Positions 23,706-51,490 of a stretch of 64,000 nucleotides of DNA are shown here, piece by piece. Each line of letters starts with the position of its first letter. The first letter of the stretch is position 1. Position numbers and translations under genes: made by a program. Under the pieces are notes generated by a model, which was not told the origin of the DNA, did not search any database, and was given only the letters and a program-made list of their open reading frames with translations. Source of the DNA: Verrucomicrobiota bacterium (lineage in GTDB: Bacteria; Verrucomicrobiota; Verrucomicrobiia; Limisphaerales; UBA9464); NCBI GenBank assembly GCA_947471985.1, contig CANIZL010000004.1, positions 1 through 64,000 of the forward strand, written 5' to 3'.

Positions 23706-24674
23706 TCAGCCGATGGCGTCGACGCGCAGGTCGCGGAGGACGCTGATTCCGGGGAGGGGGACGCCCCGGATGGGGCGAGCCCCATCCTTCCGCTTCGGGC
23801 TGAATCGGTCCCGAAACCGCATGAACTGCTGATCCACAAACTCCCGCGATCCCAGAATCACTCCATCGCTGAAATGCCGTATCCGCAGGCGTAGCACTTG
23901 GCCCCCGCCCAACTCACCGCCACGCGCCAGTTCGGCACGAATCGTTTCCGGGTCCAGGACCTGCTTATCGCTCGCATTGGCGGAACCGGCCGTTACGAAG
24001 AGCAGGCAGCGGTAGGCGGCCGCGGCCGCCGGCCAGTCCTGGGGTTCCAGGAAGCTCATCAATCCCTGCTGGATCCTGCTATTGCCCACCAGCGCGGCGG
24101 CGTAGCCGCAGTGCCGGTAGTCCTTCGGATCCGAGACCAGTCCCGCCCGCACGGGATTCAGATCAATGTAAGCCGCCAGTGTCTTCAGGGCGGTCGGGGA
24201 ATCCTCCACCAGAAGACTTGTAAAGCGTTCGGCCCACAGGGTACCGAAGCGATCGTTCCGCTCGTTGTACCACCGGCTGAAGCTTTGCTTGAACTCCTTC
24301 ATGAAGGCCGAGACATCCCCCTGACGCGCTTCCACCGACGCTCGGATCAGTGGATCGATCTTCCCCGTCTTTTTCAACGCCTCGTGCGCCAGCACGGTCC
24401 ACACGCCCTGTGGGCCGTAGAACGCCGTCAGCTTTTCCAGCAGGGCCTCCTCGGAAAGTTCGGTCGGTGGGGGGATTCGCACGAGCAGGTGGAAGTGATT
24501 GGACATCATGCAGTAGGTCAGCACCTCCACCCCGCAGAAGCGGGCCAGTGGCCAGAGTAATTGGACCAACTTCTCCTTCCCCAAGTCATCCAACAGCTTC
24601 TGCCCGCCCACAATCCGTGAAAGGCAGTGATACACGGCCGTCTCCCCCACCGGTTTGATTCGCTTCAGTCTCAT
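23706..24674 (-). CDS. REP-associated tyrosine transposase (RAYT, IS200-like Y1 domain)
   Basis: A 322-residue protein from the ATG at 24672-24674 (MRLKRIKPVGETAVYHCLSR); the ORF track adds 83 residues from an upstream start inside repeat sequence. The HUH metal-binding motif is H60-F-H62 in MMSNHFHLLVRIP. A helix KEFKQSFSRWYNERNDRFG carries the candidate catalytic tyrosine, and the C-terminal part DLNPVRAGLVSDPKDYRHCG is a family signature. RAYTs are domesticated single-strand transposases that process REP hairpins. Inverted REP-like repeats lie on both sides (23349-23480 and 24806-24890). The C-terminal 100 residues after the Y1 domain are longer than the minimal IS200 enzyme. It appears intact. 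Confidence 0.88.
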   Translation of the reverse strand: MRLKRIKPVGETAVYHCLSRIVGGQKLLDDLGKEKLVQLLWPLARFCGVEVLTYCMMSNHFHLLVRIPPPTELSEEALLEKLTAFYGPQGVWTVLAHEALKKTGKIDPLIRASVEARQGDVSAFMKEFKQSFSRWYNERNDRFGTLWAERFTSLLVEDSPTALKTLAAYIDLNPVRAGLVSDPKDYRHCGYAAALVGNSRIQQGLMSFLEPQDWPAAAAAYRCLLFVTAGSANASDKQVLDPETIRAELARGGELGGGQVLRLRIRHFSDGVILGSREFVDQQFMRFRDRFSPKRKDGARPIRGVPLPGISVLRDLRVDAIG

Positions 24675-37776: not shown

Positions 37777-40700
37777 ATGTTTGCACTTCCCTATCTACGC
37801 TTCCTGGCTGGCACCGTACTAATTGCTTCAGCCTTTAGCCCGTTGTTCGCGGCCAAACCTGAGGAGGGAGCGCCAGCAGTCGAAGCGATTGAATCGTCCA
37901 ACTCCGAAGGCGAAACCGGCCTTCCTTCCAAACTCAAGAAAATCCGTGAAGAAATTACCCGGACCGAGCACACCGAACATTCCCATCGCGAGCAATTCGT
38001 TCGACACTTCCTCGATTCCAACGGCGCCGAACTAGTCGTCACCAATACCTACACCGTTCTGGAATCCGGAATGCACTATCAGGAAGACGGTCAATGGAAG
38101 AACACGGAGGCAACCTTTGAGGAATTTCCCAGCGGTTTTGTCGCCCGCCACGGACCCCACAAAGCCATCATCGCCCGACGCCTCGGCACGCAAACCGTGG
38201 TGGATCTCCTCTCCGCCGCCGGTCACCGGCTCCAAAGTGCACCCCATTTCCTTGCCTATCAGGACAAAAACACGGGACAACAGCAAAGTCTCGCCCGAGT
38301 GCGACCTGTAGAGGGCCAACTGGTAAACCCCAATACCATTCTCTTTGAAGACGCCTTCGATGGCATCCTCGCGGATGTCAGAGTTGTCTACAAACTAGGC
38401 GGCCTTGAGTGCGATGTTGTTCTACGACAGCAGCTTCCAGATCCCACTGAGCTGGGATTGGATCCCCTGAACACAGTCTTCCAAGTCTATACGGAATTCA
38501 CCGACACGGAAGCTACCGTCGTAAACTCCGTCCAGCGGCCACGGGCCACCAAAAAGCCGCGCACGGGAGGCGAGAAATCAGGTTCAATTTCAGCACCAAA
38601 TACAGACGAGACCGATACCGATGACCTCCTGTCATTTGGCGATCTCCACCTGCCGACCGGCACGTCTTTTCCCTTGGGAAACTCCGCCGGGGCCGATCTC
38701 CCCAATGTCCGTAAAGCCTGGACCGAGCTGGATGGACGAAAATTCCTCATCGAGCAAATCGACCAGCATGAATTGGTCAAAGGCCTTACCAAGGCGTTGC
38801 CTGAGGGTGCCCAGAACAAAGCCCGGTCGCCCGGTCAGCAAAATTCCAAATTCCCGCCGCCCCTGCAACCAGCGGAACCAGCTGAAACTCAAGCAAAGTC
38901 GTGGCAGATGCGGTGCAATGAAATCGCGCTAGTCGACTCCCTGCGAACGCCTCCGGGGCAGGAAATCGTTCAATTCGACCAGAGGCCAGCCAATCCCGGC
39001 TATGTTGTCGACTGGACCCTCGTCACGAGTACCTTCGATCAATTTACCTTCGCAACTGGCCAAACCTATTTCATCAGCGGAACCGTCAATTTCCTCCCTA
39101 CCAACCCAACTTCCGGCCCCTTGGCAAACGTCCGATTCGAGCCGGATGTTGTCATCAAATACGCCCAAAACACCGCCGCCTCCATCTGCCTTTATCCTAG
39201 GACAACCGTTGATTGCGCCACGGAAATGTACCGACCGGCCCACCTCGTCCCCGTCGACGACAACACAGTGGGCGAGATTGTTTCCGGTTCGACCGGCATA
39301 GTCACCGGCACCTACGCCAATCCGGCGATCCGAATTGACGGGACCGGATCGGGATCCCCACCGGCAACCTACGGAAGTCCCCGCCTCCGTTGGCTGAGAA
39401 TCAAGAACGCAGAGCTCGGCGTCCAATTCATCCTATGCGAAAAGCCCGGTGTCATCAATTCCCAGTTTCTTAACTGCAACAATGCGTTTCGCTGCAATTA
39501 CACGATCGGCTCATCCCCGGCGATGGATGCCTTTAATTGCCTGATCGTCGGCGGCGCCAACTGCTTCTCACAGATCAATTCGTGCACGATCAACGCCTCG
39601 TGCTTGACCCTCGATATTACCGGGAGCATCAACTCGAATCCCGGAGCAAGCGCTGCCATTTGGCTGGGCAACAGCATCGTGCTCAATACCGCAGCGCTTC
39701 CCGGCAATGTCTCCGCCCCATCACCCTCAGGTAACTTCATAACTCCGTTGTCACGCAGCCAGATATTCGACTCGACAACCACAATGACCTACTGCCTGAG
39801 TCCGCTCAGCTCGACCATAATTACCGGAGTCGAGCCACCCCTATTCGGAGACAATGACATGGATTTACGAAGAGAACTATCAATTTTCAAGCCAAAACTG
39901 CTCACAGGAACCCTCTATAACCTTCCAATGATTGGCCCTTGGAATACGGCGGAAGATAAATATTTATATGCACCAGGATATCGTTACCCAGTCATCGACT
40001 ACATCATCCAGAATGCGACAGTGCCATCGGGCACACTAATCATCAAACCTGGAACGCGGATAGGCTTCAGCGGCGGGCCGGGTCTTACACTGGCGGATGG
40101 GACCAGCGTCAAAAGTTGGGGCACTGGTCCCCTGCGTGGCAGCATCCCCACGATATACAAGCCGGGAACGACCAACGTTTTTATAAGAGACACTTCAGTC
40201 GGCGAGCAATCCGCGGGATTTGCCGGATCGACAAAATCTGGAACTTACTTTACTTTGGGCGGCGCCGCCACTGTGGACTTGCGGTTTACCCAATTGATGG
40301 GTGGAACATCGCAACAAACATTGGCAGATTTCCAAGTCGCCGGAGGGGGCAGAATTAATAGTCTGTCGGTCCGCGACTGCGTTGCCTTCAAAATGGGGGT
40401 GACGATCTATAACTACAGCGCAGGCCAAAGGCAAATCATCAATTTCAAAAACAACCTGCTCTACCAGTGTTCCCTTACCGCCATGTCCGGCTATGTCTCA
40501 ACTCCTTATCCGTTGGATTTGGAATTCTCCAATAATTTAGTTTCCCAAGGTTCTGTAACCCTTACGTGGCTCGCTGGAACTGGGTCAACCTGGAACATTC
40601 GCGACAATGTATTCAGCACAGTTACCACCTCGGCGACTGGAATTCAATCCAATGGCAGTCTATCGGATGGCAATGTGCCACCTGTGTTTACCACTGCGGT

Positions 40701-43700
40701 CAGAAATAACGCTTATTATTCAACCACGGCTCTACCTCAACTTTCCCCAATCACTTTGTCGACGCTGACTTACACTTCCGGCGATGGCTGGCCGTACTAT
40801 ATTTATCACCGGGATCTGCCAAATTGTGGCAATCCGCCGGTCGTCACCATGTCCAGCTTATACAAAATGGGGAGCCGGAGTATTTCCGCCGCAGGCCTCT
40901 TCCACTACACCACGGGCAAAGTATTTGATATGATTGGCGGCTCCCGCCACGGTTGCTATGGCGTCGTAAATGACAAAGCTGGCAACAGTCCTGGCGCCAA
41001 CCCAATGACAGACCCAGTGGATATTGGACCCTATACTTACTCAAACCAGACAGATTACGACAACGATTTCCTAGCCGACGCGATTGAGGATTCAAATGGC
41101 AATGGAACGTATGAGCCGACTGTGGAGTTGTCGGATTGGACCCATACCAGTACTGACGACCCCTTCCCCCAATCTGACCCCCTTGGTGATGGCGCAGAAA
41201 TCGAATTCGGTCTGGATCCAAGAGCGGGTAATGATACCGACGGTGATGGTGCATCGGATTGGGACGAAGTTCGAGAGGGCACCAATCCAAGGAGCAATCA
41301 GCTCTCGCCGAACTACGACCCCGCCACACCCACGAGACTTTCGCTTTGGGAGTTTGACGAACAGCCCCTTCCCGGCGGCGTTTGGCTGCCCCGGGGCGGC
41401 TTGGGCTTGGACCCCAATCCCACCATTTTCGTGAACTCAATGGCATCCCTGTCAGCCAACCAGCGCGTGGAATCTTATGCCGGAACTGCGGTGTATTTTC
41501 CAGCAACACTGCCGGGGGGAGGTGCTACACAGCCCCTTGGAATTCCCTTGAACTACACCATCCCCAGTCCGGTTCAAACCGTTGCATTGGCCAGCCTTGC
41601 TCATGGAAGCATTCAATTTACGTACTCTCCGGATTGGCTCCAATCCGGTGGTACGGGTGCACCGGGCGCGTGGTGTACGCTCCTTGACGGTGGAAGCGCG
41701 ACGAGAATCTGGCGTCTCAGTATTGATCCCACCGGCACGTACGTTGTCTTTCAAACGCCCTTCGGGAGCGCCAGCCGCATCAATTTTCAAGCTACGCTTC
41801 CCCGTAATCCCGGACTCAATCCCGTCCCGAGCGGCGGGCGGGCGGTTTGGAGGCTTTCCCTCAATTACTCGTCAACCTCCTCGTCGCTTGAATTCATCCC
41901 TTCCAGTTCCGGGGACGCGTTCAAATTGCCTGTTACCACGTCCGGAGGAATCTGGCCGGGTGAAGGATTGGGGGTCGACGCGGCGAGTGTGAACACCCTC
42001 GTGGGTTTGGGCGCCAAGCTGGATGTCGGAACGGCGATCAATGGCGCCGGGCAAGCGGTTGAACCCGCCTTGGGGTGGATAGAAGATCTTGAGATTTTTA
42101 ATTGCGTCTTCTCCAATCGGATTCCGGGAGCCGATGGCTCCAAAGCAACCCCGTTTGCCAACTCCTGGAAAGACAGATTCCGGCGAATCTGGTGCGCTCC
42201 GGACCCCACGGGAGTCAAGGTGCAATTCTACCGTCACTGGGAAACCAGCTGGCCCACTACTACCGCATATGTCATCGAAAGAAGACCCTATGGGACAGCC
42301 AACTGGACCACCTTGGCTACAAATTGGCGGCAGAATACCTACATCGATACGACGGCTTCCTTAAATACGCTTTACGAGTACCGCTGTGAGCCGGACATTC
42401 GAACCGCCTATGGCGTCCGCGGAACCTATGATCCCGGCTACCGGGTGATCGTGGTGGTCGATAAGCAACTGAAGCAATGGGATACTAACACGACTGTTGC
42501 GGCCGCGGGCAGCATTGGCGCATTTAACGTCAAACTATCCGCGTATTTGGCACAGCTAAGTTTAAAGTTCGGTTCAGCCAATGTAACGACGACTCCCATT
42601 GAAGCCGAACGAATGAACGATGAGGACCCTAATTATGTCAATCCGCTAATCAATCCAACCTGCTTTATTAGCGATCCAAATCCCTCCAGCGCAAATTCGA
42701 TTTGGCGGGCAAATTGCGCTCTGGTCAAGCAAGCGATTCAAGCGGCGATTGTCCCGGGAAAAATTAATCTGGTTGTTTTGATTGGCCATGTCCCGGTACC
42801 CATGGCAGGGAACGTCACCGCCGGCGGGCATGACGAGACCAGTGGTGCAAAGGCGGCCGATGTTTGGTATGGCGATTCGCAGGCATGGGATGACTCCATC
42901 AGTACTTTCGATCCATACAACGCAGCCGACCCGGTTACTCTCCACCTCTTCGATAGTATTCCAAATACCGCCCCGGACTACCTTAGAGACATCGCCAAGA
43001 AGGTTTATGCCAATACGGCGAATGATGGCAAATGGACGAACAATGTGCTACCGAACCAATCCGACGGCAGTCCTGGCCAATTGGAAGCAGCGGTAGGACG
43101 GATTGATTTTGCCCGAATGCCCTATCACAAGCGAGCCAATGAGAGCCTGCGGCAATCAGAGCTTCGTTTGACTGCGGCCTATCTGGATAAGGTCCTTCGT
43201 TACCGCAATCAACAGTTGACGTTTTCCAAAGGCGGCTATTCATTTGCGGGTTCCGCCAGCAAGTATGACCCCAACAGCCTCTATTCCAGTTCATCGCCGC
43301 TGGACACCCCGGCGAACCTAGGAAACGTGATTGTTCCCGAGAGCTGCCTCGGCGCATTGCCCGCTGGACAGTATGTAGATCTATTCAATCCAATCATAAG
43401 TTCGGGGAAGCCAGCACGAGTATGGGGCTTCCATGGTGGATATGGAGGCGCCGATTCGATTCAAGGATATAGACAGATTCCCATTCAATCATGGCAGTTA
43501 TCTCGGGAGATTAACGACCTAGCAAGAAGGGAACCAGCGTCCGCTATTTGTATTATTTATGGTTCGTATTTTGCTGACTGGTATCCGGCTCCAGGCGGCT
43601 CAAACACTTATGACCTGAATCAGCTTATGATATCCGGTTTCATGCGAAGTGTCTTGGCGGCACCAAACAGCGGATTGGTGGTTATGTCCCTCGAGGGTTT

Positions 43701-43824
43701 CCAACCGAACTTGCGACGTGTTGGAATTGGCGCCCCGGTTGGGGTGGGGCAGATTGACTCGTTCAAGACGGACTCAAGTATTCATTATAAATCTATTTTG
43801 GGCGATCCAACTCTAACCTTTTAA
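37777..43824 (+). CDS. Giant secreted multidomain protein with C25/caspase-like C-terminal domain
   Basis: A 2015-residue protein with a signal peptide (about 1-25). Residues 60-340 are an unrecognised N-terminal domain (TNTYTVLESGMHYQEDGQWK). About 400-1080 reads as a right-handed beta-helix rich in Asn/Ser/Thr. Near 1093-1165 are calcium-binding DxDxDG loops (YDNDFLADAIEDSNGNG and NDTDGDGASDWDEVREGTNP). About 1180-1440 is lectin-like, and a fibronectin-III-like unit lies near 1480. The last 380 residues resemble the alpha/beta domain of gingipain-type C25 proteases: KINLVVLIGHVPVPM, GFHGGYGGADS (candidate His, near 1886), and CIIYGSYFADW (near 1928) where the catalytic Cys is expected. No PEP-CTERM tail. 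The PEP-CTERM gene starts 2 bp after its stop. Codon choice is more A/T-rich than in neighbouring genes. Confidence 0.8.
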   Translation: MFALPYLRFLAGTVLIASAFSPLFAAKPEEGAPAVEAIESSNSEGETGLPSKLKKIREEITRTEHTEHSHREQFVRHFLDSNGAELVVTNTYTVLESGMHYQEDGQWKNTEATFEEFPSGFVARHGPHKAIIARRLGTQTVVDLLSAAGHRLQSAPHFLAYQDKNTGQQQSLARVRPVEGQLVNPNTILFEDAFDGILADVRVVYKLGGLECDVVLRQQLPDPTELGLDPLNTVFQVYTEFTDTEATVVNSVQRPRATKKPRTGGEKSGSISAPNTDETDTDDLLSFGDLHLPTGTSFPLGNSAGADLPNVRKAWTELDGRKFLIEQIDQHELVKGLTKALPEGAQNKARSPGQQNSKFPPPLQPAEPAETQAKSWQMRCNEIALVDSLRTPPGQEIVQFDQRPANPGYVVDWTLVTSTFDQFTFATGQTYFISGTVNFLPTNPTSGPLANVRFEPDVVIKYAQNTAASICLYPRTTVDCATEMYRPAHLVPVDDNTVGEIVSGSTGIVTGTYANPAIRIDGTGSGSPPATYGSPRLRWLRIKNAELGVQFILCEKPGVINSQFLNCNNAFRCNYTIGSSPAMDAFNCLIVGGANCFSQINSCTINASCLTLDITGSINSNPGASAAIWLGNSIVLNTAALPGNVSAPSPSGNFITPLSRSQIFDSTTTMTYCLSPLSSTIITGVEPPLFGDNDMDLRRELSIFKPKLLTGTLYNLPMIGPWNTAEDKYLYAPGYRYPVIDYIIQNATVPSGTLIIKPGTRIGFSGGPGLTLADGTSVKSWGTGPLRGSIPTIYKPGTTNVFIRDTSVGEQSAGFAGSTKSGTYFTLGGAATVDLRFTQLMGGTSQQTLADFQVAGGGRINSLSVRDCVAFKMGVTIYNYSAGQRQIINFKNNLLYQCSLTAMSGYVSTPYPLDLEFSNNLVSQGSVTLTWLAGTGSTWNIRDNVFSTVTTSATGIQSNGSLSDGNVPPVFTTAVRNNAYYSTTALPQLSPITLSTLTYTSGDGWPYYIYHRDLPNCGNPPVVTMSSLYKMGSRSISAAGLFHYTTGKVFDMIGGSRHGCYGVVNDKAGNSPGANPMTDPVDIGPYTYSNQTDYDNDFLADAIEDSNGNGTYEPTVELSDWTHTSTDDPFPQSDPLGDGAEIEFGLDPRAGNDTDGDGASDWDEVREGTNPRSNQLSPNYDPATPTRLSLWEFDEQPLPGGVWLPRGGLGLDPNPTIFVNSMASLSANQRVESYAGTAVYFPATLPGGGATQPLGIPLNYTIPSPVQTVALASLAHGSIQFTYSPDWLQSGGTGAPGAWCTLLDGGSATRIWRLSIDPTGTYVVFQTPFGSASRINFQATLPRNPGLNPVPSGGRAVWRLSLNYSSTSSSLEFIPSSSGDAFKLPVTTSGGIWPGEGLGVDAASVNTLVGLGAKLDVGTAINGAGQAVEPALGWIEDLEIFNCVFSNRIPGADGSKATPFANSWKDRFRRIWCAPDPTGVKVQFYRHWETSWPTTTAYVIERRPYGTANWTTLATNWRQNTYIDTTASLNTLYEYRCEPDIRTAYGVRGTYDPGYRVIVVVDKQLKQWDTNTTVAAAGSIGAFNVKLSAYLAQLSLKFGSANVTTTPIEAERMNDEDPNYVNPLINPTCFISDPNPSSANSIWRANCALVKQAIQAAIVPGKINLVVLIGHVPVPMAGNVTAGGHDETSGAKAADVWYGDSQAWDDSISTFDPYNAADPVTLHLFDSIPNTAPDYLRDIAKKVYANTANDGKWTNNVLPNQSDGSPGQLEAAVGRIDFARMPYHKRANESLRQSELRLTAAYLDKVLRYRNQQLTFSKGGYSFAGSASKYDPNSLYSSSSPLDTPANLGNVIVPESCLGALPAGQYVDLFNPIISSGKPARVWGFHGGYGGADSIQGYRQIPIQSWQLSREINDLARREPASAICIIYGSYFADWYPAPGGSNTYDLNQLMISGFMRSVLAAPNSGLVVMSLEGFQPNLRRVGIGAPVGVGQIDSFKTDSSIHYKSILGDPTLTF

Positions 43825-43826
43825 TT

Positions 43827-44498
43827 ATGAGAATTACGATGAAGTGTTGCTGCCTTCTTTTGTTTTCACTGCCATCCCGGGCCACGGATTTCGTCAACTT
43901 GGATTTTGACGATCCGAATCTGACAAATCTCGCTTTTTATAATACACCACCGTTCGGCGAGCGTCGACTTTACGGCCCGATTCTTGATTTGCTCAGAGGA
44001 TGGTCGGTTACAGAGGGAGGCAAGCCCTATTCGGGATTGATGGCCTATTCGGTGGCTCCTGATGGGGGGGGGGTATTTCCGAGCGTCCAAATGGCGCTTG
44101 CAGTGGGCACTTATACAATAGGAAAATATAATATCGAGTTTGCCTCAATCAGGCCTCCGCAGCGACCTGGATTGGAACCGCTCGACATGGTAATTTCCCA
44201 GGTCGGAACCGTGCCGGCAGATGCCTACTACTTGACCGGAATTGGTGGAACCTTTGCCGCAATCAACGGCAGCCCCCTGACGGTAACGCGTCCTTATGAT
44301 TTTTTGATACCCTTCTGGGATGTGCACGAGTACGCCGGCAAGGAAGTTACCTTAAGTTTCACTTTTCACGGTAATGGCAATTACGATCTGGCGGTACTGG
44401 ACATTGTCGGTTTTACCACTCCCGAGCCATCGACGTGGGCACTTCTGGCGGTCGGGACCCTGATACTGGGCGTTGGCTGTTTGCCCCGAAGACGATGA
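43827..44498 (+). CDS. PEP-CTERM sorted secreted protein, copy 1
   Basis: A 223-residue protein with a signal peptide (MRITMKCCCLLLFSLPSRAT). The body is a beta-rich, lectin-like domain (DFVNLDFDDPNLTNLAFYNT, GWSVTEGGKPYSGLMAYSVA, DVHEYAGKEVTLSFTFHGNG). The C-terminus is a complete PEP-CTERM signal: PEPSTWALLAVGTLILGVGC followed by LPRRR, the substrate of an exosortase that releases or anchors extracellular-matrix proteins. No exosortase lies in the window. It follows the giant gene by 2 bp and is surely co-transcribed with it. A paralogue of identical length lies at 45445. An array of inverted repeats starts 86 bp downstream. Confidence 0.9.
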   Translation: MRITMKCCCLLLFSLPSRATDFVNLDFDDPNLTNLAFYNTPPFGERRLYGPILDLLRGWSVTEGGKPYSGLMAYSVAPDGGGVFPSVQMALAVGTYTIGKYNIEFASIRPPQRPGLEPLDMVISQVGTVPADAYYLTGIGGTFAAINGSPLTVTRPYDFLIPFWDVHEYAGKEVTLSFTFHGNGNYDLAVLDIVGFTTPEPSTWALLAVGTLILGVGCLPRRR

Positions 44499-44520
44499 GG
44501 CACGGGGCGGGAACTGCCCC

Positions 44521-44590
44521 ACGGGACTCTTATCCACCTGCGGATTTGAGTCCGTGAAGTTGCAGGAAATTGCCCATGTTGATGTCGGCA
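44521..44590 (-). pseudogene. Remnant of a homologue of the ADP-ribosyltransferase-like gene
   Basis: Read on the minus strand, this stretch gives DINMGNFLQLHGLKSAGG then a stop. The intact gene at 46901 has AVINMGNCLNLIDAAH at its middle, and the DNA agrees over roughly 34 bp (GGGCAATTxCCT). The fragment has no start and is cut off by the array leader at 44584. The match is short, so homology is likely but not certain. It links array 1 to the same gene that flanks array 2. Confidence 0.5.
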
Positions 44591-45307
44591 ATACCTGATC
44601 GATGGGTGATTCGAGCGTGCATTCGGCTCGTACGTCGGTCTCCAAAGCGTCAGAGGACTGCCGCAGTCCAAAACCTGGCGGAATCCTCCCACACGTGAGA
44701 AGTCGCGAAAGCGTCTTGGACTGCGGTTGTCCCCTACCGCTTTGGAATGGGGCGTTAACAAACCCAACGCGCACCGAAACGTTCAACGCCAGTCCGCATG
44801 GAGAGCTCGACATCCGTCCGGCTCGTACGTCTGTCTCCAAAGCGTCAGCGGACTGCCGAAGTCCAAAACCTGGCGGAATCCCACCCGCCGCGAGAGAAGT
44901 CGCGAAAGCGTTTTGGACTGCGGTTGCCCCCTACCGCTTTGGAATGGGGCGTGAACAAACCCAACGCGCACCAAAACGTTCAACGCCGTTCCGCTGGGAG
45001 ATCTCGACGTCCGTTCGGCTCGTACGTCTGTCTCCAAAGCGTCAGAGGACTGCCGCTGTCCAAAACCTCGCGGTATTCCCCCGGCCGCGAGAGACGTCGC
45101 GAAGCGTTTTGGACTGCGGTTGTCTTCTACCGCTTTGGAATGGGGCGTGAACAAACCCAACGCGCACCGATACGTTCAACGCCGGTCAGCTGTGAAAGCT
45201 CTACGTCCATCCGGCTCGCACGTCTGTCTCCAAAGCGTCAGAGGACTGCCGCAGTCCAAAACCTCGCGGAATTCCCCCCGCCGCGAGAGACACCGCGAAG
45301 TTGTCAG
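44584..45307. repeat. Array 1 of about 195-bp inverted-repeat units
   Basis: The array opens with GTCGGCAATACCTGATC (44584) and holds units whose GGCTCG landmark falls at 44625, 44820, 45017 and 45213, giving periods of 195-197 bp; the fourth unit is a half unit. In each full unit a left arm of about 35 bp (44641-44675 in unit 1, with CCGCAGTCCAAAACC) pairs with a right arm (44712-44746, with GGACTGCGG and CGCTTTGG) with about five mismatches. Inside are two smaller hairpins (GGCGG/CCGCC and CGCGA/TCGCG in some units). The array ends at CGCGAAGTTGTCAG. All three frames are largely open on both strands, but the reading is repeat-derived and is not called coding. Confidence 0.85.
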
Positions 45308-45320
45308 ACCCGGCTGGCAC

Positions 45321-45442
45321 AACCAAAATTTGCCGCAGGTCGGGATTGGTGCTCCGGTTGGCGTGGGCCAGATCACTCGTTCAGGGTGCACCCAATTATT
45401 CTTTATAAATTCATTCTGAGCGATCCAACTTTGACCTTCTAA
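45321..45442 (+). pseudogene. Duplicated 3' end of the giant gene (frameshifted)
   Basis: This 122-bp piece copies the last codons of the giant gene. One frame gives VGIGAPVGVGQI, as in the giant protein, then a frameshift moves the match to another frame ending ILYKFILSDPTLTF against SIHYKSILGDPTLTF. The TAA and the two bases before the next ATG are also conserved. It is the left edge of the tandem duplication that produced the second PEP-CTERM gene, and has no start of its own. Confidence 0.85.
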
Positions 45443-45444
45443 TT

Positions 45445-46116
45445 ATGAGGTATACAAAGAAGACCTATTGCTTGCTTCTGCTGTCACTGCCAACCCTGGC
45501 CAAGGATTTTGTCAATTTGGATTTTGATGATCCTATTTTGACGAATATCGCCTACTATACCCCACCCCTAAACAGCGGACGGCGACTTTACGGCCCAGTC
45601 GAGGATTTGCTAAGAGGTTGGACGGTTACCGAGGGAGGCAAACCCTATTCGGGATTCATGGCCTATTCGGTCGGCCCCGATGGGGGCTTGGCTTTTCCAG
45701 GCCTCCAGATGGCACTAACGGTGGGCAATTATACCATCGGGAAATACAATATTGAGTTTAGGTCATTTAGACCCCCGGAGCGGCCGGGATTGGATCCGCT
45801 CAACATGACCATTTCGCAGATTGGAACTGTGCCGGCGGGCGCCTACTATTTGACTGGAGTCGGTCGAGGACTTGCTTCGATCAACGGCATCCCGCTGACA
45901 GAGACGCGTCCTTATGATTTTCTGCTACCCTTTTGGGATGTGCACGAATACGCTGGCAAAGAGGTCACCTTAAGTTTTGAATTTCACGGCGACGGCGAGG
46001 GCAGCGTAATGCCTCTTGATATTATCGGTTTTACTGCGCCCGAACCATCGACGTGGGCGCTGCTGGCGGTCGGGTCCTTGGTATTGGGCGTCGGCTGTTG
46101 GCCCCGAAGAAGATGA
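45445..46116 (+). CDS. PEP-CTERM sorted secreted protein, copy 2
   Basis: A 223-residue paralogue of the gene at 43827, alignable without large gaps: DFVNLDFDDPILTNIAYYTP, GWTVTEGGKPYSGFMAYSVG, DVHEYAGKEVTLSFEFHGDG. The signal peptide is MRYTKKTYCLLLLSLPTLAK, and the sorting signal PEPSTWALLAVGSLVLGVGC plus WPRRR is intact. The reading frame is open and both signals are kept, so it should be functional, but its natural promoter upstream has been replaced by array 1 and the giant-gene fragment. An array of repeats begins almost directly after its stop. Confidence 0.9.
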   Translation: MRYTKKTYCLLLLSLPTLAKDFVNLDFDDPILTNIAYYTPPLNSGRRLYGPVEDLLRGWTVTEGGKPYSGFMAYSVGPDGGLAFPGLQMALTVGNYTIGKYNIEFRSFRPPERPGLDPLNMTISQIGTVPAGAYYLTGVGRGLASINGIPLTETRPYDFLLPFWDVHEYAGKEVTLSFEFHGDGEGSVMPLDIIGFTAPEPSTWALLAVGSLVLGVGCWPRRR

Positions 46117-46120
46117 GACG

Positions 46121-46871
46121 CGCAGAGACACCCAGCGGACTTAGGTCGGCAATACCTGATCGACGGGTGATTCGGGCGCGCATTCGGCTCGCACGGTTGC
46201 CGGCCAAAGCGTCAGAGGACTACCGCAGTCCAAACCCTGGCGAATTCCCCCCCCCGCCGCGGGAGAGGTCGCGAAGCGTCGTGGACTGCGGTTGTCTTCT
46301 ACCGCTTTGGAATGGGGCGCTAATAAACCCAACGCGCACCGATACGTTCAACGCCGGTCAGCTGTGAAAGCTCTACGTCCGTCCGGCTCGTACGTCTGTC
46401 TCCAAAGCGTCAGAGGACTGCCGCAGTCCAAAACCTGGCGGAATTCCCCCCCCGCCGCGTGAGAAGTCGCGAAAGCGTCTTGGACTGCGGTTGTCTTCTA
46501 CCGCTTTGGAGTGGGGCGCTAACAAGCCCAACGCGCACCGAAGCGTTCAACGCCGGTCCGCTGGGAAAGCTCGACGTCCGTCCGGCTCGTACGTCTGTCT
46601 CCAAAGCGTCAGAGGACTGCCGCAGTCCAAAACCTGGCGGAATCCCCCCGCCGCGTGAGAAGTCGCGAAGCGTCGTGGACTGCGGTTGTCCCCTACCGCT
46701 TTGGAATGGGGCGCTAACAAGCCCGACGCGCACCGAAACGTTCCACGCCGTTCCGATGGGAAAGCTCGACGTCCGTCCGGCTCGTACGTCTGTCTCCAAA
46801 GCGTCAGCGGACTGCCGCAGTCCAAAACCTGGCGGAATTCCCCCCACCGCGAGAAGTCGCGAAGGTGTCAG
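46121..46871. repeat. Array 2 of about 195-bp inverted-repeat units
   Basis: The array starts 5 bp after the PEP-CTERM stop with the leader CGCAGAGACACCCAGCGGAC and GTCGGCAATACCTGATC (46145-46161). GGCTCG landmarks fall at 46186, 46385, 46584 and 46779 (periods 199, 199, 195), and the last unit is again a half unit ending CGCGAAGGTGTCAG (to 46871), the same right end as array 1. Each full unit keeps the long inverted arms (CCGCAGTCCAAAAC against GGACTGCGG and CCAAAGCG against CGCTTTGG). C-tracts of seven to nine bases (for example at 46248-46255) vary between units. Confidence 0.85.
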
Positions 46872-46900
46872 TCACCACTGGCAACTCGGCTTCACGCTTC

Positions 46901-47488
46901 TTAGCGGTAAGCGAAGTCCTTTGGATTGGGCACATGAAAGAATCCAAGGATCTGCTGGACGTTGGTGACGCAGATCTGGATGTGGTCGAGGGTTCGCAGT
47001 CCGGCAGTCTCGTAAAGTGGAATGCCCTCGATGAAAAAGGCGCGGATGGTGTCGAAGGAGGGATGGCCATCGTCCTTACGCATCCGGTGGAGAGTCTCGA
47101 AGACGGCATGATCGAGAAACCGGGCGTCCAAGTTCGGCCCTTTGTTCCTGGGAATATCCACACCCGCTGCCTTGCAGGTTTTGAGGTAGGTATCGTGAGC
47201 GGTGATGACCAACTCCAAGTGGGCTGCGTCGATCAGGTTAAGGCAATTGCCCATATTGATGACGGCACCGACAACGGCAGGATTGCCAATTTTTCCGGTT
47301 CGTCTTTGGGTCGCTTCGGCCCAAAGCTGTGCGCGTGAGGGGCTCTCTTCCCAAAAATAGACTCCAGGGCCCAGCCAGTGGTGCTTGTGAGACCCCGGAT
47401 CTGGCCGCAGAGAGCCGTCGACCAAACCGTTGGCGATGGATTGATCGCAACCGTGATACCCGAGTACCAAGGCGCGAGAAAGTGTCAT
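46901..47488 (-). CDS. Putative ADP-ribosyltransferase-like protein, probable toxin
   Basis: A 195-residue soluble protein. Near the N-terminus it has LVLGYHGCDQSIANGLVDGS and then HHWLGPGVYFWEESPSRAQL; an H-G pair followed by a G-x-Y-F/W-x-x-S segment and a helix is the pattern of the NAD-binding half of PARP-like ADP-ribosyltransferases (compare HG... GxxYF). A strand VVGAVINMGNCLNLID follows, and the C-terminal half is mixed alpha/beta with RTLDHIQICVTNVQQILGFF. The catalytic acidic residue cannot be assigned, so the activity is an inference. Its ATG overlaps the stop of a 57-residue ORF (ATGA), the usual layout of toxin-antitoxin pairs. The gene ends 30 bp from array 2. Alternatives: an uncharacterised phage-defence or phage-derived protein. 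Confidence 0.7.
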   Translation of the reverse strand: MTLSRALVLGYHGCDQSIANGLVDGSLRPDPGSHKHHWLGPGVYFWEESPSRAQLWAEATQRRTGKIGNPAVVGAVINMGNCLNLIDAAHLELVITAHDTYLKTCKAAGVDIPRNKGPNLDARFLDHAVFETLHRMRKDDGHPSFDTIRAFFIEGIPLYETAGLRTLDHIQICVTNVQQILGFFHVPNPKDFAYR

Positions 47489-47658
47489 CGAAACTCAGGC
47501 TTAAGCCGACCGTCGGCCTCGTGCATGCCGAGGGCGAGAATGAAGCGCAGGGCGCTTTTTTTGGTCCTTAGAATTCGTTTGGCCGTAGCACGGAGCCGCT
47601 GGACCTCTTGTTCAGGGGTCTTTACTTCGGATACCCGGCGATTTGTTACGGTAGCCAT
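47485..47658 (-). CDS. 57-residue ORF overlapping the ADP-ribosyltransferase-like gene, putative antitoxin
   Basis: Not in the ORF track because it is under 60 residues. From the ATG at 47656-47658 it reads MATVTNRRVSEVKTPEQEVQ, then RLRATAKRILRTKKSALRFI, then LALGMHEADGRLKPEFR and TGA. The TGA overlaps the start of the next gene (ATGA), so the two are translationally coupled. It is basic and predicted helical, with a RLRATAKRILRTKKSALRFI amphipathic stretch that could bind DNA or the toxin. No known antitoxin family is recognised. A GGAAT purine-rich stretch lies about 10 nt before the start. It is supported mainly by its exact overlap with the larger gene. Confidence 0.65.
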   Translation of the reverse strand: MATVTNRRVSEVKTPEQEVQRLRATAKRILRTKKSALRFILALGMHEADGRLKPEFR

Positions 47659-48004: not shown

Positions 48005-49819
48005 TTACGGCGTTCCGCTCACCAGGGTCTTGCGGCGCCAGACCTTGTCCTTGTCGCAGACAAAGAGGTACTGCCGTCCCGGTCCGCCAAAGGCACAGCT
48101 CACCGGCGTCGTGTCCGCCCGGGGCTTCGCAATCACGCCGCCGAGACGGCCCGTCCAGTCGAACATCTGAATGCCCGCCGTCGATGTCACATAGGCGCGT
48201 CCATCGGCGTCCATCGTGGAGCCGTCGCCGGCGCTCTCCGTCTTGCCGGGAGGCACCACCAGGGTCATGTAACGTTCGCCGCCGAAAAGCGCGCCTTCTT
48301 CACCGATCAGGAACGTCCAGACGTTCGTGCCTTTGTATTCGGAAACGATCAGCTGCTTCTGATCCGCGCTCAGGGCGATGCCGTTCGGTGCCGTGATGCC
48401 GCCGGCCACCGGGCGGGGGCCACCAAGATTCCGCGCCGAGGTCGGCACCATGACCACCTGGCCGGCACCGGTATCGGTGAAATAAATTCGTCCATTCCGG
48501 GTCACCACAAGGTCGTTCGGCTTCACGTTCGAGGCGACGGTTTCCACTTCCTTGGTGACAGGATCGATCACCACGATGCGTTGCTTGAGGTCGCCCGGAC
48601 CGCCCTGGGTGGCTGCGTAAAGTTTGCCGTCCGCGCCCCATTTCATGCCGCTGATCTTCGGGCCGCCGGCGAGCCATTTTTCAGGCTGACCCTCGGGCGG
48701 CACCCGCCAGAGATCGGACTTGTTCAGGTCACTGAACCAGAGGTTGCCCTGGGCATCGCCCGCGGCACCATCCGTGAAACCGTAGCCTTCACCCACCAAT
48801 TGCCAGTCGCCCGGTTGCCCGCCGCCGGGCAGGACCTTGTTGAGCGCCTCGTCGCCGCGCCAGTTGTTGGTGCTCGGCGCGGGGGCAATCGTGGCCGGCC
48901 GCCAGAGCCAGCGCAGGGTGTCAGGCAGGATGGCCCCGCCGTGCTGCCCGCTGTGCGAGCCGTCGCCGAAGACGAACTTGAAATCGTACCCGGCAAACGC
49001 GAGGGCGCTGGCCATGGTCTGGTTCGCCAGCGGCCAGTCGCCGTGGACATTGTTCAGGTCGTTGCGACCGTCCTGCAAAAACACGCGGATGGGCTTGCGC
49101 TCGGTCTTGCGAATCAGCGCCGGATACACGTGCCCGCCGCGGATGTTCACGAAGCTGCCAATCTGGCTGAGCACGCGACCGAATTGATCCGGCCGTTCCC
49201 ACGCGGCCGTGAAGGCGCAGATGCCACCGCTGCTCATGCCGCACAACGCCCGTTGGGACGGATCGGTCGAAAGATTTAACGAGAACGTCTTGGTCACGAA
49301 CGGCAGCGCCTCTTCCAGGAGGAACTTCACATATTGGCTGCCCAGCGAATCATATTCGAAACTGCGATTGCTGCGATTCCCCCAGCCGCTGGCCGGCGGG
49401 GCATCCCCGCCGACGTGGCCGGGATTCAGAAATACCCCCACCGTCACGGGCATCTCGCCGGCCGCGATGAGATTGTCGAACACGATCGGCACCCGTTGCT
49501 GGCCCTTTTCGTCGACGTAGGCATGTCCATCCATGAACACCATGAGGGCGGCCGGCTTGGCGGGATCGTATTGGGCCGGGATGTAAATCCAGCCATCGCG
49601 GGCGGCGTCGCGGAAGACCACGGAATTGCTGAGCGCAAAACTCTGCACGCGGCCCTGCGGCACGCCGGCCTTGCGCGCGGTGGATTCCGCCGGGAGCGGA
49701 TACAACTCGGCCGAATGCACAGCCGGACCGACCAGCGACCAAGCCAATAGCATCGTCCCGGCGGCCCGGGCGACCGGAGACGACGACGCGTGGGCGGCGC
49801 GAAGAATACGGGGAATCAT
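48005..49819 (-). CDS. Secreted esterase / SMP-30-gluconolactonase fusion
   Basis: A 604-residue protein with a signal peptide (IPRILRAAHASSSPVARAAG and onward). Residues about 55-300 are a Fes/esterase-D type alpha/beta hydrolase: YIPAQYDPAKPAALMVFMDG, the nucleophile elbow in LCGMSSGGICAFTAAW, and GDGSHSGQHGGAILPDTLRW with the candidate catalytic His. Residues about 330-600 are an SMP-30/gluconolactonase propeller (GAAGDAQGNLWFSDLNKSDL, PNGIALSADQKQLIVSEYKG, GDGSTMDADGRAYVTSTAG). Such fusions occur in carbohydrate-degrading bacteria, and would join ester hydrolysis (for example feruloyl or acetyl groups) with lactone hydrolysis. The gene is divergent from the serine hydrolase at 49988, sharing an upstream region with a 9-bp repeat. 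Confidence 0.88.
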   Translation of the reverse strand: MIPRILRAAHASSSPVARAAGTMLLAWSLVGPAVHSAELYPLPAESTARKAGVPQGRVQSFALSNSVVFRDAARDGWIYIPAQYDPAKPAALMVFMDGHAYVDEKGQQRVPIVFDNLIAAGEMPVTVGVFLNPGHVGGDAPPASGWGNRSNRSFEYDSLGSQYVKFLLEEALPFVTKTFSLNLSTDPSQRALCGMSSGGICAFTAAWERPDQFGRVLSQIGSFVNIRGGHVYPALIRKTERKPIRVFLQDGRNDLNNVHGDWPLANQTMASALAFAGYDFKFVFGDGSHSGQHGGAILPDTLRWLWRPATIAPAPSTNNWRGDEALNKVLPGGGQPGDWQLVGEGYGFTDGAAGDAQGNLWFSDLNKSDLWRVPPEGQPEKWLAGGPKISGMKWGADGKLYAATQGGPGDLKQRIVVIDPVTKEVETVASNVKPNDLVVTRNGRIYFTDTGAGQVVMVPTSARNLGGPRPVAGGITAPNGIALSADQKQLIVSEYKGTNVWTFLIGEEGALFGGERYMTLVVPPGKTESAGDGSTMDADGRAYVTSTAGIQMFDWTGRLGGVIAKPRADTTPVSCAFGGPGRQYLFVCDKDKVWRRKTLVSGTP

Positions 49820-49894
49820 ACCCCGTTGATGTCGCCGCCGATTGGTGGGCGTTCAACCCCAAAAACGGCTGGCGCGGTTTTTTCGCCCGATCCG

Positions 49895-49943
49895 CACCAT
49901 TCCCACCATTCCCACCATTCCCACCATTCCCACCATTCCCACC
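49895..49943. repeat. CACCATTCC microsatellite in a divergent promoter region
   Basis: Five perfect copies of CACCATTCC plus CACC lie between two divergent genes, 76 bp from one start and 45 bp from the other. Changes in copy number would shift the spacing of any promoter here. The repeat is in frame with an upstream extension of the serine hydrolase ORF (HHSHHSHHS), but that extension is unlikely to be translated because a signal peptide starts at 49988. Confidence 0.9.
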
Positions 49944-49987
49944 GTGACGGACCGCGCGGTGTGGATTATGCGTCCGGTCCGATCCCC

Positions 49988-51490
49988 ATGAGAAACATCG
50001 CCCTCCTTTGCGGACTCCTGCTGGCCACGTCCGCCGGCTGGCTGCGGGCCGACCGACTGCCCCGCCCCACTGCGACCTCGCTGCCCCGCAGCACACCGGA
50101 ACGGCAGGGCGTTTCCTCGGCCGGGTTGCTCGAGTTCCTTGAGGCGCTTGATCCCATCGACGCCGTGCACAGCGTTATGCTGGTGCGGCACGGGCACGTG
50201 GTGGCCGAGGGTTGGTGGGCGCCGTACGACGCCGTCAGCAATCACGAACTCTACTCCCTAAGCAAGAGCTTCACCTCCACCGCCGTGGGGTTGGCCGTGG
50301 CAGAAGGCCGCATGAGTATCGACGACGAAGTGCTGAAGTTTTTCCCTCAGGACGCGCCCAAGGAGCCCAGTGCCAATCTCAAGGCGATGCGCGTGCGGGA
50401 CCTCCTGAGCATGTCCACCGGCCATCAGGACGAACCCCCGACGGCAGCGGACAAGGTCTCGCCCGCGACGTTCCTCGCCCAGCCAGTGCCGCACAAACCC
50501 GGCACTCACTTCAAATACAACACGGCCGCCACCTTCATGCTGTCCGCCATCGTGCAGAAGCAGACGGGCCAGACCGTGCTGGATTACCTGCAACCGCGGC
50601 TCTTCGTCCCTCTCGGCATCACTCAGCCCGTGTGGAGCACCAATTTTCAGGGCATTTCCCTGGGCGGCTCTGGACTGCGCGTCCGCACGGAGGACCTGGC
50701 CCGATTCGGTCAGGTGTATCTGAACCACGGTCGCTGGCAGGGTCGGCAATTGATTCCCGCCGGCTGGGTCGAGGCGGCTACTTCCCGACAAGTCTCCAAC
50801 GGCAGCAATCCCCGGAGCGATTGGGATCAGGGCTACGGCTATCAATTCTGGCGCTGCCAACACGGCGCGTTCCGCGGGGACGGCGCCTATGGACAATACT
50901 GCGTGGTCCTGCCGGAACAGGACGCCGTACTGATCATCACCAGTGGGGTCAAGGACATGCAGGGCATCCTGAACGTGGTGTGGGACAAACTCCTGCCCGC
51001 CTTCAAACCCCGCGCCTTGCCATCGGACTCGCGCAACCTCCAACGCCTCAAGACCCGCCTGGCCGGGCTGACCCTGCCGACGCCCAAAGATGCCGCCACC
51101 GCCAGCGCCAGCACCCGCGCCCTCGGACGTCGTTTCCGGTTCGCCGCCAATGATCAAAAGCTGGAATCATTGAGCGTGGAGGCCAATCCCAACGGCCCCG
51201 GGTGGATCCTGGTGACCCAAGTCGGCGGTGTGGAGAGCCGCATTCCCTGCGGGTATCTATCCTGGTTGCGCGGTCGCGGCCCGTTCAACAATCGCCCGGA
51301 GGAACCGCTGGCCGGCAGCGGCGCGTGGAGCAGCGACGACACGCTTTCGCTCAAGATCTGCGCCTACGAGACGCCCTTCCACACGGTGGTGAAGTTGCGC
51401 TTCGACGGCAATCAGGTGACCCGCGAGAGCACCGGCAATGTGGGCGCTGGCGCGACTCCATCGGCCCCGCTGATCGGTCAAGCCGAGTGA
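49988..51490 (+). CDS. Secreted serine hydrolase (beta-lactamase / class C, DD-peptidase-like)
   Basis: A 500-residue protein from the ATG at 49988 (MRNIALLCGLLLATSAGWLR, signal peptide). It has the SxxK motif in ELYSLSKSFTSTAVGLAVAEG and the YxN motif in FKYNTAATFMLSAIV. LRVRTEDLARFGQVYLNHGR and YGYQFWRCQHGAFRGDGAYG are also conserved in the family; the third motif is probably the HGAFRGDG region. Family members act as esterases, DD-peptidases or aminopeptidases, and the substrate cannot be deduced. The last 130 residues form an extra beta-rich domain. The gene precedes the OppA gene by 79 bp. Confidence 0.88.
   Translation: MRNIALLCGLLLATSAGWLRADRLPRPTATSLPRSTPERQGVSSAGLLEFLEALDPIDAVHSVMLVRHGHVVAEGWWAPYDAVSNHELYSLSKSFTSTAVGLAVAEGRMSIDDEVLKFFPQDAPKEPSANLKAMRVRDLLSMSTGHQDEPPTAADKVSPATFLAQPVPHKPGTHFKYNTAATFMLSAIVQKQTGQTVLDYLQPRLFVPLGITQPVWSTNFQGISLGGSGLRVRTEDLARFGQVYLNHGRWQGRQLIPAGWVEAATSRQVSNGSNPRSDWDQGYGYQFWRCQHGAFRGDGAYGQYCVVLPEQDAVLIITSGVKDMQGILNVVWDKLLPAFKPRALPSDSRNLQRLKTRLAGLTLPTPKDAATASASTRALGRRFRFAANDQKLESLSVEANPNGPGWILVTQVGGVESRIPCGYLSWLRGRGPFNNRPEEPLAGSGAWSSDDTLSLKICAYETPFHTVVKLRFDGNQVTRESTGNVGAGATPSAPLIGQAE

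Follow-up and report, generated by a model that had tools for sequence, protein, structure and literature searches.

The window analyzed here, a stretch of 64,000 nucleotides from a Verrucomicrobiota genome (the host genome), contains two neighboring tandem arrays whose units are built from long inverted arms. Such arrays could be a local accident of duplication, a structured RNA or DNA, a row of protein-binding sites or the local form of an element that is copied elsewhere, and we asked which of these accounts fits them best.

Layout of the arrays and the duplication around them

A sequence-only reading of this DNA had described two arrays of about 195-bp units, each with three full units and a half. 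Both were recovered by Tandem Repeats Finder, at 44611-45290 (period 197, 3.5 copies, 89% matches) and at 46204-46864 (period 199, 3.4 copies, 92%), and with their margins they extend over 44584-45304 (array A) and 46145-46869 (array B), with a unit period of 195 to 199 bp and 3.5 units in either. The unit is directional and consists of an arm L, 38 to 42 bp of loop, an inverted arm R and 89 bp of spacer. Both arrays start within a spacer and break off immediately ahead of where an R arm would be expected, as follows:

44584-45304 (+), array A: partial spacer, three units (L arm, loop, R arm, spacer) and a half unit (L arm, loop)
46145-46869 (+), array B: laid out as array A, with partial spacer, three units and a half unit
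44641-44674, 44836-44869, 45033-45066 and 45229-45262 (+), L arms of array A: stem type TC/GC, 47-57 bits with the arm matrix
46203-46236, 46401-46434, 46600-46633 and 46795-46828 (+), L arms of array B: stem type TC/GC, 47-57 bits with the arm matrix
44713-44746, 44910-44943 and 45106-45139 (-), R arms of array A: stem type GT/AC, 52-58 bits with the arm matrix
46278-46311, 46477-46510 and 46672-46705 (-), R arms of array B: stem type GT/AC, 52-58 bits with the arm matrix
44675-44712 (+), inner loop (38-42 bp) from L arm to R arm: genome-wide consensus CTCGCGGAATTCACCCGCCGCGTGAGAAGTCGCGCCAGC, judged by eye from 31 loops in one orientation
44747-44835 (+), outer spacer from R arm to the following L arm: 89 bp in all units of the window

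The inverted arms of about 35 bp with few mismatches that had been reported were also borne out, as arms of 34 bp that pair at 26 to 28 of 34 positions in the six full window units. In nearly all window units the mismatches between arms recur at arm positions 10, 11, 19 and 20, which are stem positions and belong to the variable inner pairs. Folded as DNA, the hairpin of one unit reaches -35.9 kcal/mol, compared with -15.7 ± 2.5 for shuffled sequences (z = -8.2), and a weight matrix for the arm gave 0 matches in 320 kb of shuffled sequence. On the strength of these two results, chance is excluded and the window arrays with their inverted arms are confirmed as real.

The common start and stop of the two arrays are likewise present: a left block of 51 bp (GTCGGCAATACCTGATC...) is 92% identical between arrays A and B, and both end with the same last bases, CGCGAAGKTGTCAG. 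These fixed ends had been taken as a property of the element itself, and this part of the claim did not hold. By blastn, 43720-44499 and 45339-46117 are 77% identical over 780 bp, in addition to the 51-bp block at the array start, and the two arrays lie in the two copies of a segmental duplication with the following parts:

43720-45308 (+), copy 1 of the tandem duplication (~1.6 kb, blastn): tail of a large ORF (37777-43824), PEP-CTERM gene and array A
45339-46869 (+), copy 2 of the duplication (blastn): pseudo-tail of the large ORF, second PEP-CTERM gene and array B
43827-44498 (+), PEP-CTERM protein gene copy 1, 223 aa: ORF with a match to Pfam PF07589 at E = 4.8e-4, 0.1 bit below the cut-off
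45445-46116 (+), PEP-CTERM protein gene copy 2, 223 aa: ORF with nucleotide similarity to copy 1

Arrays A and B thus share their ends because each sits in one copy of this duplication and goes back to one ancestral array. Elsewhere in the host genome, the borders of arrays fall at varied points of the unit (L arms, R arms or the loop), and fixed ends are therefore no property of the element. The ~1.6-kb duplication of large-ORF tail, PEP-CTERM gene and array is an old one. The six full window units are 86 to 95% alike, with no excess at matching positions (A1-B1 88%, A2-B2 90%, A3-B3 88%, A1-B2 92%), while the duplicated genes are only 77% alike. This pattern suggests that, once the PEP-CTERM gene and the array downstream of it had been duplicated as one piece, the two arrays exchanged sequence.

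Two further observations concern the surroundings of the arrays. Just before array A (44500-44583), GGAAATTGCCCATGTTGATGTCGGC resembles part of the downstream gene at 46901-47488 (GGCAATTGCCCATATTGATGACGGC, 47230-47280), perhaps as a remnant of an older rearrangement. At 49895-49943, at or just before the start of a predicted gene (ORF 49790-51490), 5.4 copies of a 9-bp unit (CACCATTCC) form a perfect tandem repeat.

Dispersal of the arm and the hairpin inside it

The sequence-only reading had suggested a discrete element copied as a unit, as opposed to random tandem expansion, and the host genome agrees with it. With one window unit as the query, we found 115 matches in the host genome, and the arm weight matrix identified 118 arms of 34 bp at 39 loci, the window included, in a census of the retrieved loci rather than the whole genome in which 40 of 81 first-look candidates were scored. 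These arms share the consensus TCCAAAGCGGTAGAGGACTACCGCAGTCCAAGAC and alternate strictly in orientation, with spacers of 38 to 42 and 88 to 93 bp; the outer spacer keeps to the latter range at nearly all sites, with a single one of 97 bp. The linkers can be aligned across the host genome, the spacers sharing homology with one another. Isolated sites mostly hold a two-arm doublet, with few single arms.

A search of other Verrucomicrobiota genomes, which had been proposed along with that suggestion, was run with the arm pattern. This pattern, in which the stem bases were free, matched 67 of 146 genomes from the order, where a reversed control pattern gave 0 matches, and 16 of 289 genomes of a phylum-wide draw. 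The named records that match a stricter arm pattern are nearly all Verrucomicrobia MAGs, one of them labeled Limisphaerales; single matches labeled Acidimicrobiia and Methylacidiphilum may be binning errors. The spacing is specific to each genome, with 39/90 bp in the host, ~40/53 in a second genome (G005), ~10 in the K_Offshore MAG and, counted between 27-bp cores, 27/40-44 in G115, a genome from a different family than the host. Separately, a contig of 11.8 kb that is classed as viral in IMG/VR (L214) carries three arms in the same orientation, at 2281, 2814 and 6266; it may represent a prophage region, or else bacterial DNA that was misclassified.

Each arm holds a 7-bp stem and a 4-base loop (GCGNNAG-AGGR-CTNNCGC). 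Among 107 distinct arms outside the host genome, Watson-Crick pairing is seen in 85% at stem pair 7-18 (47% expected) and in 87% at stem pair 8-17 (54% expected), where the expectation comes from base composition and leaves the descent of these related arms unmodeled; the changes recur in many lineages. GC, CG, AT and TA combinations all occur at the variable pairs in these arms, and the commonest forms of the middle stem (GC/GC, CC/GG, GT/AC and GG/CC) are all complementary. A further stem form, from G115, is GCTGTAG/CTACAGC, and other classes have GCGGCAC/GTGCCGC, GCGAAAC/GTTTCGC or GCGACAC/GTGTCGC. Stems in the host genome are more degenerate than those of its relatives, with pair 9-16 Watson-Crick in 71%. 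These data indicate that the conserved structure is the 7-bp hairpin within each arm, kept by compensatory change across genomes.

Readings of the unit

The units are dispersed through the genome and intergenic, with a compensated hairpin in each arm, unlike stem types and a rigid, genome-specific spacing. We read them, with a probability of roughly 0.85, as REP/BIME/REPIN-like palindromic doublets that spread as small non-autonomous elements and were amplified locally by recombination. As such they extend a known kind of bacterial repeat by a new family and are no new system.

A nucleoid or regulatory protein might instead bind the arrays as an ordered row of sites by recognizing the palindrome GCGNNAGAGGRCTNNCGC, an idea that agrees with the palindromic core, the fixed flanks (AAAGC...GCASTCCA) and the rigid spacing. 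We consider it unlikely, given that changes in the stem core are compensated, as fits a hairpin more than a duplex site, that the spacing differs between genomes (39/90, 27/42 and ~10), without a shared helical phase, and that there is no consistent arrangement relative to promoters.

A second alternative is that the unit acts as RNA, as a transcribed multi-hairpin element serving as a terminator, an mRNA stabilizer or a processed RNA. The hairpins fold well, and the host units are mostly antisense to flanking genes (24 loci versus 5, among 29 informative; arrays L016-L053; p = 0.0005), but this bias is absent in G115, where the counts are 20 versus 20. With a simple codon-based gene caller, 0 of 41 arrays in the host genome and 1 of 63 in G115 overlap a called gene. 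Host arrays with both neighbors called lie in 12 co-directional, 8 divergent and 4 convergent contexts, the window arrays being 2 of the 4 convergent ones, and those in G115 lie in 21, 11 and 6, respectively. Since divergent contexts outnumber convergent ones in both genomes, a terminator role is not favored. Moreover, G-U pairs are rare in the arms of other genomes (1 to 5% per stem pair), and Rfam 15 covariance models gave no match to 43500-47500 up to E = 1. A role as RNA is thus quite improbable in our judgment.

The third alternative, in which the unit functions as DNA through pairing of its two arms into a cruciform or long hairpin, had been raised by the sequence-only reading, and it stood in part. 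The arms are always inverted and one unit does fold stably (-35.9 kcal/mol as noted above, or about -36, with z = -8.2), but the mismatches are fixed at the four arm positions given earlier, and partner arms in the host genome are less complementary than shuffled partners, matching at 26.9 of 34 positions versus 28.3 for randomly matched arms. Covariance between the arms had been proposed as a check, with its absence counting against the long hairpin; there is no compensatory pattern from arm to arm, and compensation is strong inside the arms instead. The partners also differ in stem type, with L being NC/GN and R being GT/AC. Partners of the same type number 0 of 34 across the loop (7.2 expected) and 0 of 41 across the spacer (10.3 expected) in the host genome, an absence that is partly due to descent from one directional unit. 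In G115, nearly all neighbors combine a TGT-stem arm with a GGC- or GGT-stem arm, so that the stem pair differs from that of the host and the alternation is alike. A long arm-arm hairpin may form, yet it is not what selection or copying preserves, and we give a function that depends on it little credence.

Local tandem duplication alone, with no dispersed element, is scarcely credible: units within an array resemble each other more closely than do units at most other loci and the arrays sit in a segmental duplication, but the presence of the same arms at ~40 unlinked loci and in 67 of the 146 genomes of the order refutes it as a full account. A CRISPR array, which would consist of direct repeats and unrelated spacers, was also rejected, as the arms are inverted and the spacers mutually homologous.

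Likeness to REP elements and a mobile element in the arm

REP, BIME and REPIN elements are thought to move via single-stranded hairpins acted on by RAYT enzymes. REPs are palindromes of 20 to 50 nt, high in copy number and mostly intergenic, and the present arm has 34 bp and 118 copies, with none of its 41 arrays in genes. As in BIMEs, the palindromes alternate strictly at regular spacing with conserved linkers, and as in REPINs, the inverted doublet is the common unit and singlets are few. No GTAG or CGTC tag lies outside the stem, where AAA and ASTCCA are conserved. GTAG is confined to the interior of one stem type; other arms have GCAG, CCAG, CGAG, GCAC and others at that point.

Among ~50 Y1/RAYT loci of nine genomes, we found a single arm beside such a gene and none at the other ~49. 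At this locus (L054), a 354-aa RAYT gene (1456-2520) is followed by an arm at 2556-2589 that starts 36 bp past the stop codon; we estimate the probability of one such neighbor by chance at roughly 0.1. On this count, the arms are probably not carried in RAYT flanks. The presence of a Y1 gene was rejected as a feature separating arm-rich from arm-free genomes, as such genes occur in 8 of 8 of the former and 13 of 16 of the latter; the host genome has 26 Y1 matches. Given the missing GTAG tag and the one arm beside ~50 RAYT loci, we therefore file the family as REP-like and untagged, and not as proven REP. In addition, there is a multi-copy family of ~348-aa Y1/RAYT-like transposases, with a copy in the window at 24450-24632 (-) and others at L059-L069, of which 0 are flanked by arms.

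On the REP-like reading, the unit of two unlike, inverted hairpin arms, L (NC/GN) and R (GT/AC), at fixed distances of ~39 and ~90 bp in the host, would spread as a small non-autonomous doublet. A nuclease or transposase acting in trans would recognize the single-stranded hairpins, with a RAYT-type HUH enzyme as the leading candidate. The two unlike stems would prevent the pair from forming one perfect long hairpin, and unequal recombination would then multiply units locally into tandem arrays. A more speculative extension, which we hold doubtful, is that one of the unlike stems marks a left end and the other a right end, and that a putative hairpin-recognizing nuclease of the phylum reads the two separately. 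The variable stem pairs would then form a recognition code, coevolving with this enzyme lineage by lineage, and mobility would depend on unlike partners instead of just tolerating them.

A close parallel in layout is found in the ordered tandem REP arrays of P. fluorescens SBW25 (GI-GIII; REPINs), in which two REP types alternate at 112 and 72 bp with a period of 184 (PMC3116915). The same two-type alternation is found here, at 124 and 73 bp from start to start and a period of ~197. Both are inverted extragenic doublets in ordered clusters with conserved flanks, a comparison made by layout; unlike the SBW25 arrays, those described here have no GTAG tag, are not tied to RAYT genes and belong to a different phylum. 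E. coli BIMEs, in which REP y is joined with z1 or z2, are similarly imperfect inverse palindromes connected by linkers, in tandem and with partners of different types (PMC8266576). In contrast to the present arms, whose flanks AAA and ASTCCA are conserved and whose stem varies with compensation, E. coli REPs carry the GTAG and the stem bulge that TnpA-REP needs (PMC8266576).

Of the papers found on palindromic repeats in Verrucomicrobiota, one had a bearing on the present family (PMC3733652). The GTAG/CGTC-tagged repeats described there, which include some from Opitutus terrae, a member of the same phylum as the host, resemble the present family in having stems of 6 to 13 bp, complementary changes between subfamilies, frequent heterodimers, an intergenic location and a high copy number. 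The present family differs in having neither tag outside the stem, and it is set apart from the O. terrae families by description, so that overlap is possible. The same study remarked that the two REPs of a pair frequently differ in type, with "no obvious explanation", and proposed that, by being unlike, the partners evade the enzymes removing long perfect hairpins (PMC3733652). Our data bear on this remark in that nearly all partners differ in two genomes from different families, with the stems intact by compensation, and unlike partners with compensated stems fit the proposed escape. It is this combination of compensatory stem change within arms and consistently unlike partners that is noteworthy. 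With this family, a field that has drawn mostly on Proteobacteria also gains an untagged palindromic repeat, which is found mainly in one order of Verrucomicrobiota and sporadically in the rest of the phylum.

REPs are known as targets of insertion sequences (PMC1525189), and the arm described here is itself entered by a mobile element. Of 11 copies of the element end CTCATCCTTACCCACATTTCTTGG..., 10 are joined to an arm at exactly the same point (CT^ACCGC), at host-genome contig ends (loci L106-L116, e.g., L107:1501); the eleventh copy is at a non-arm site ending in GGACT. The insertion point is in the variable part of the stem and is used in either half of the palindrome. Insertion at one exact position of a palindrome is shared with ISPpu9, ISPsy8 and other REP-targeting insertion sequences; unlike these, the present element is cut by contig ends and without family assignment (PMC1525189). 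As the contigs break inside it, the element is known from its end alone. IS110 transposases (PF01548) and the DruA family (PF14236) were rejected as its source, since copies of both exist and none has the element's ends. A related element end, CTCACCCTTACCCACAAATC..., whose partial ORF has no Pfam match, is joined at the same arm point in three further arms (L021, L032 and L039).
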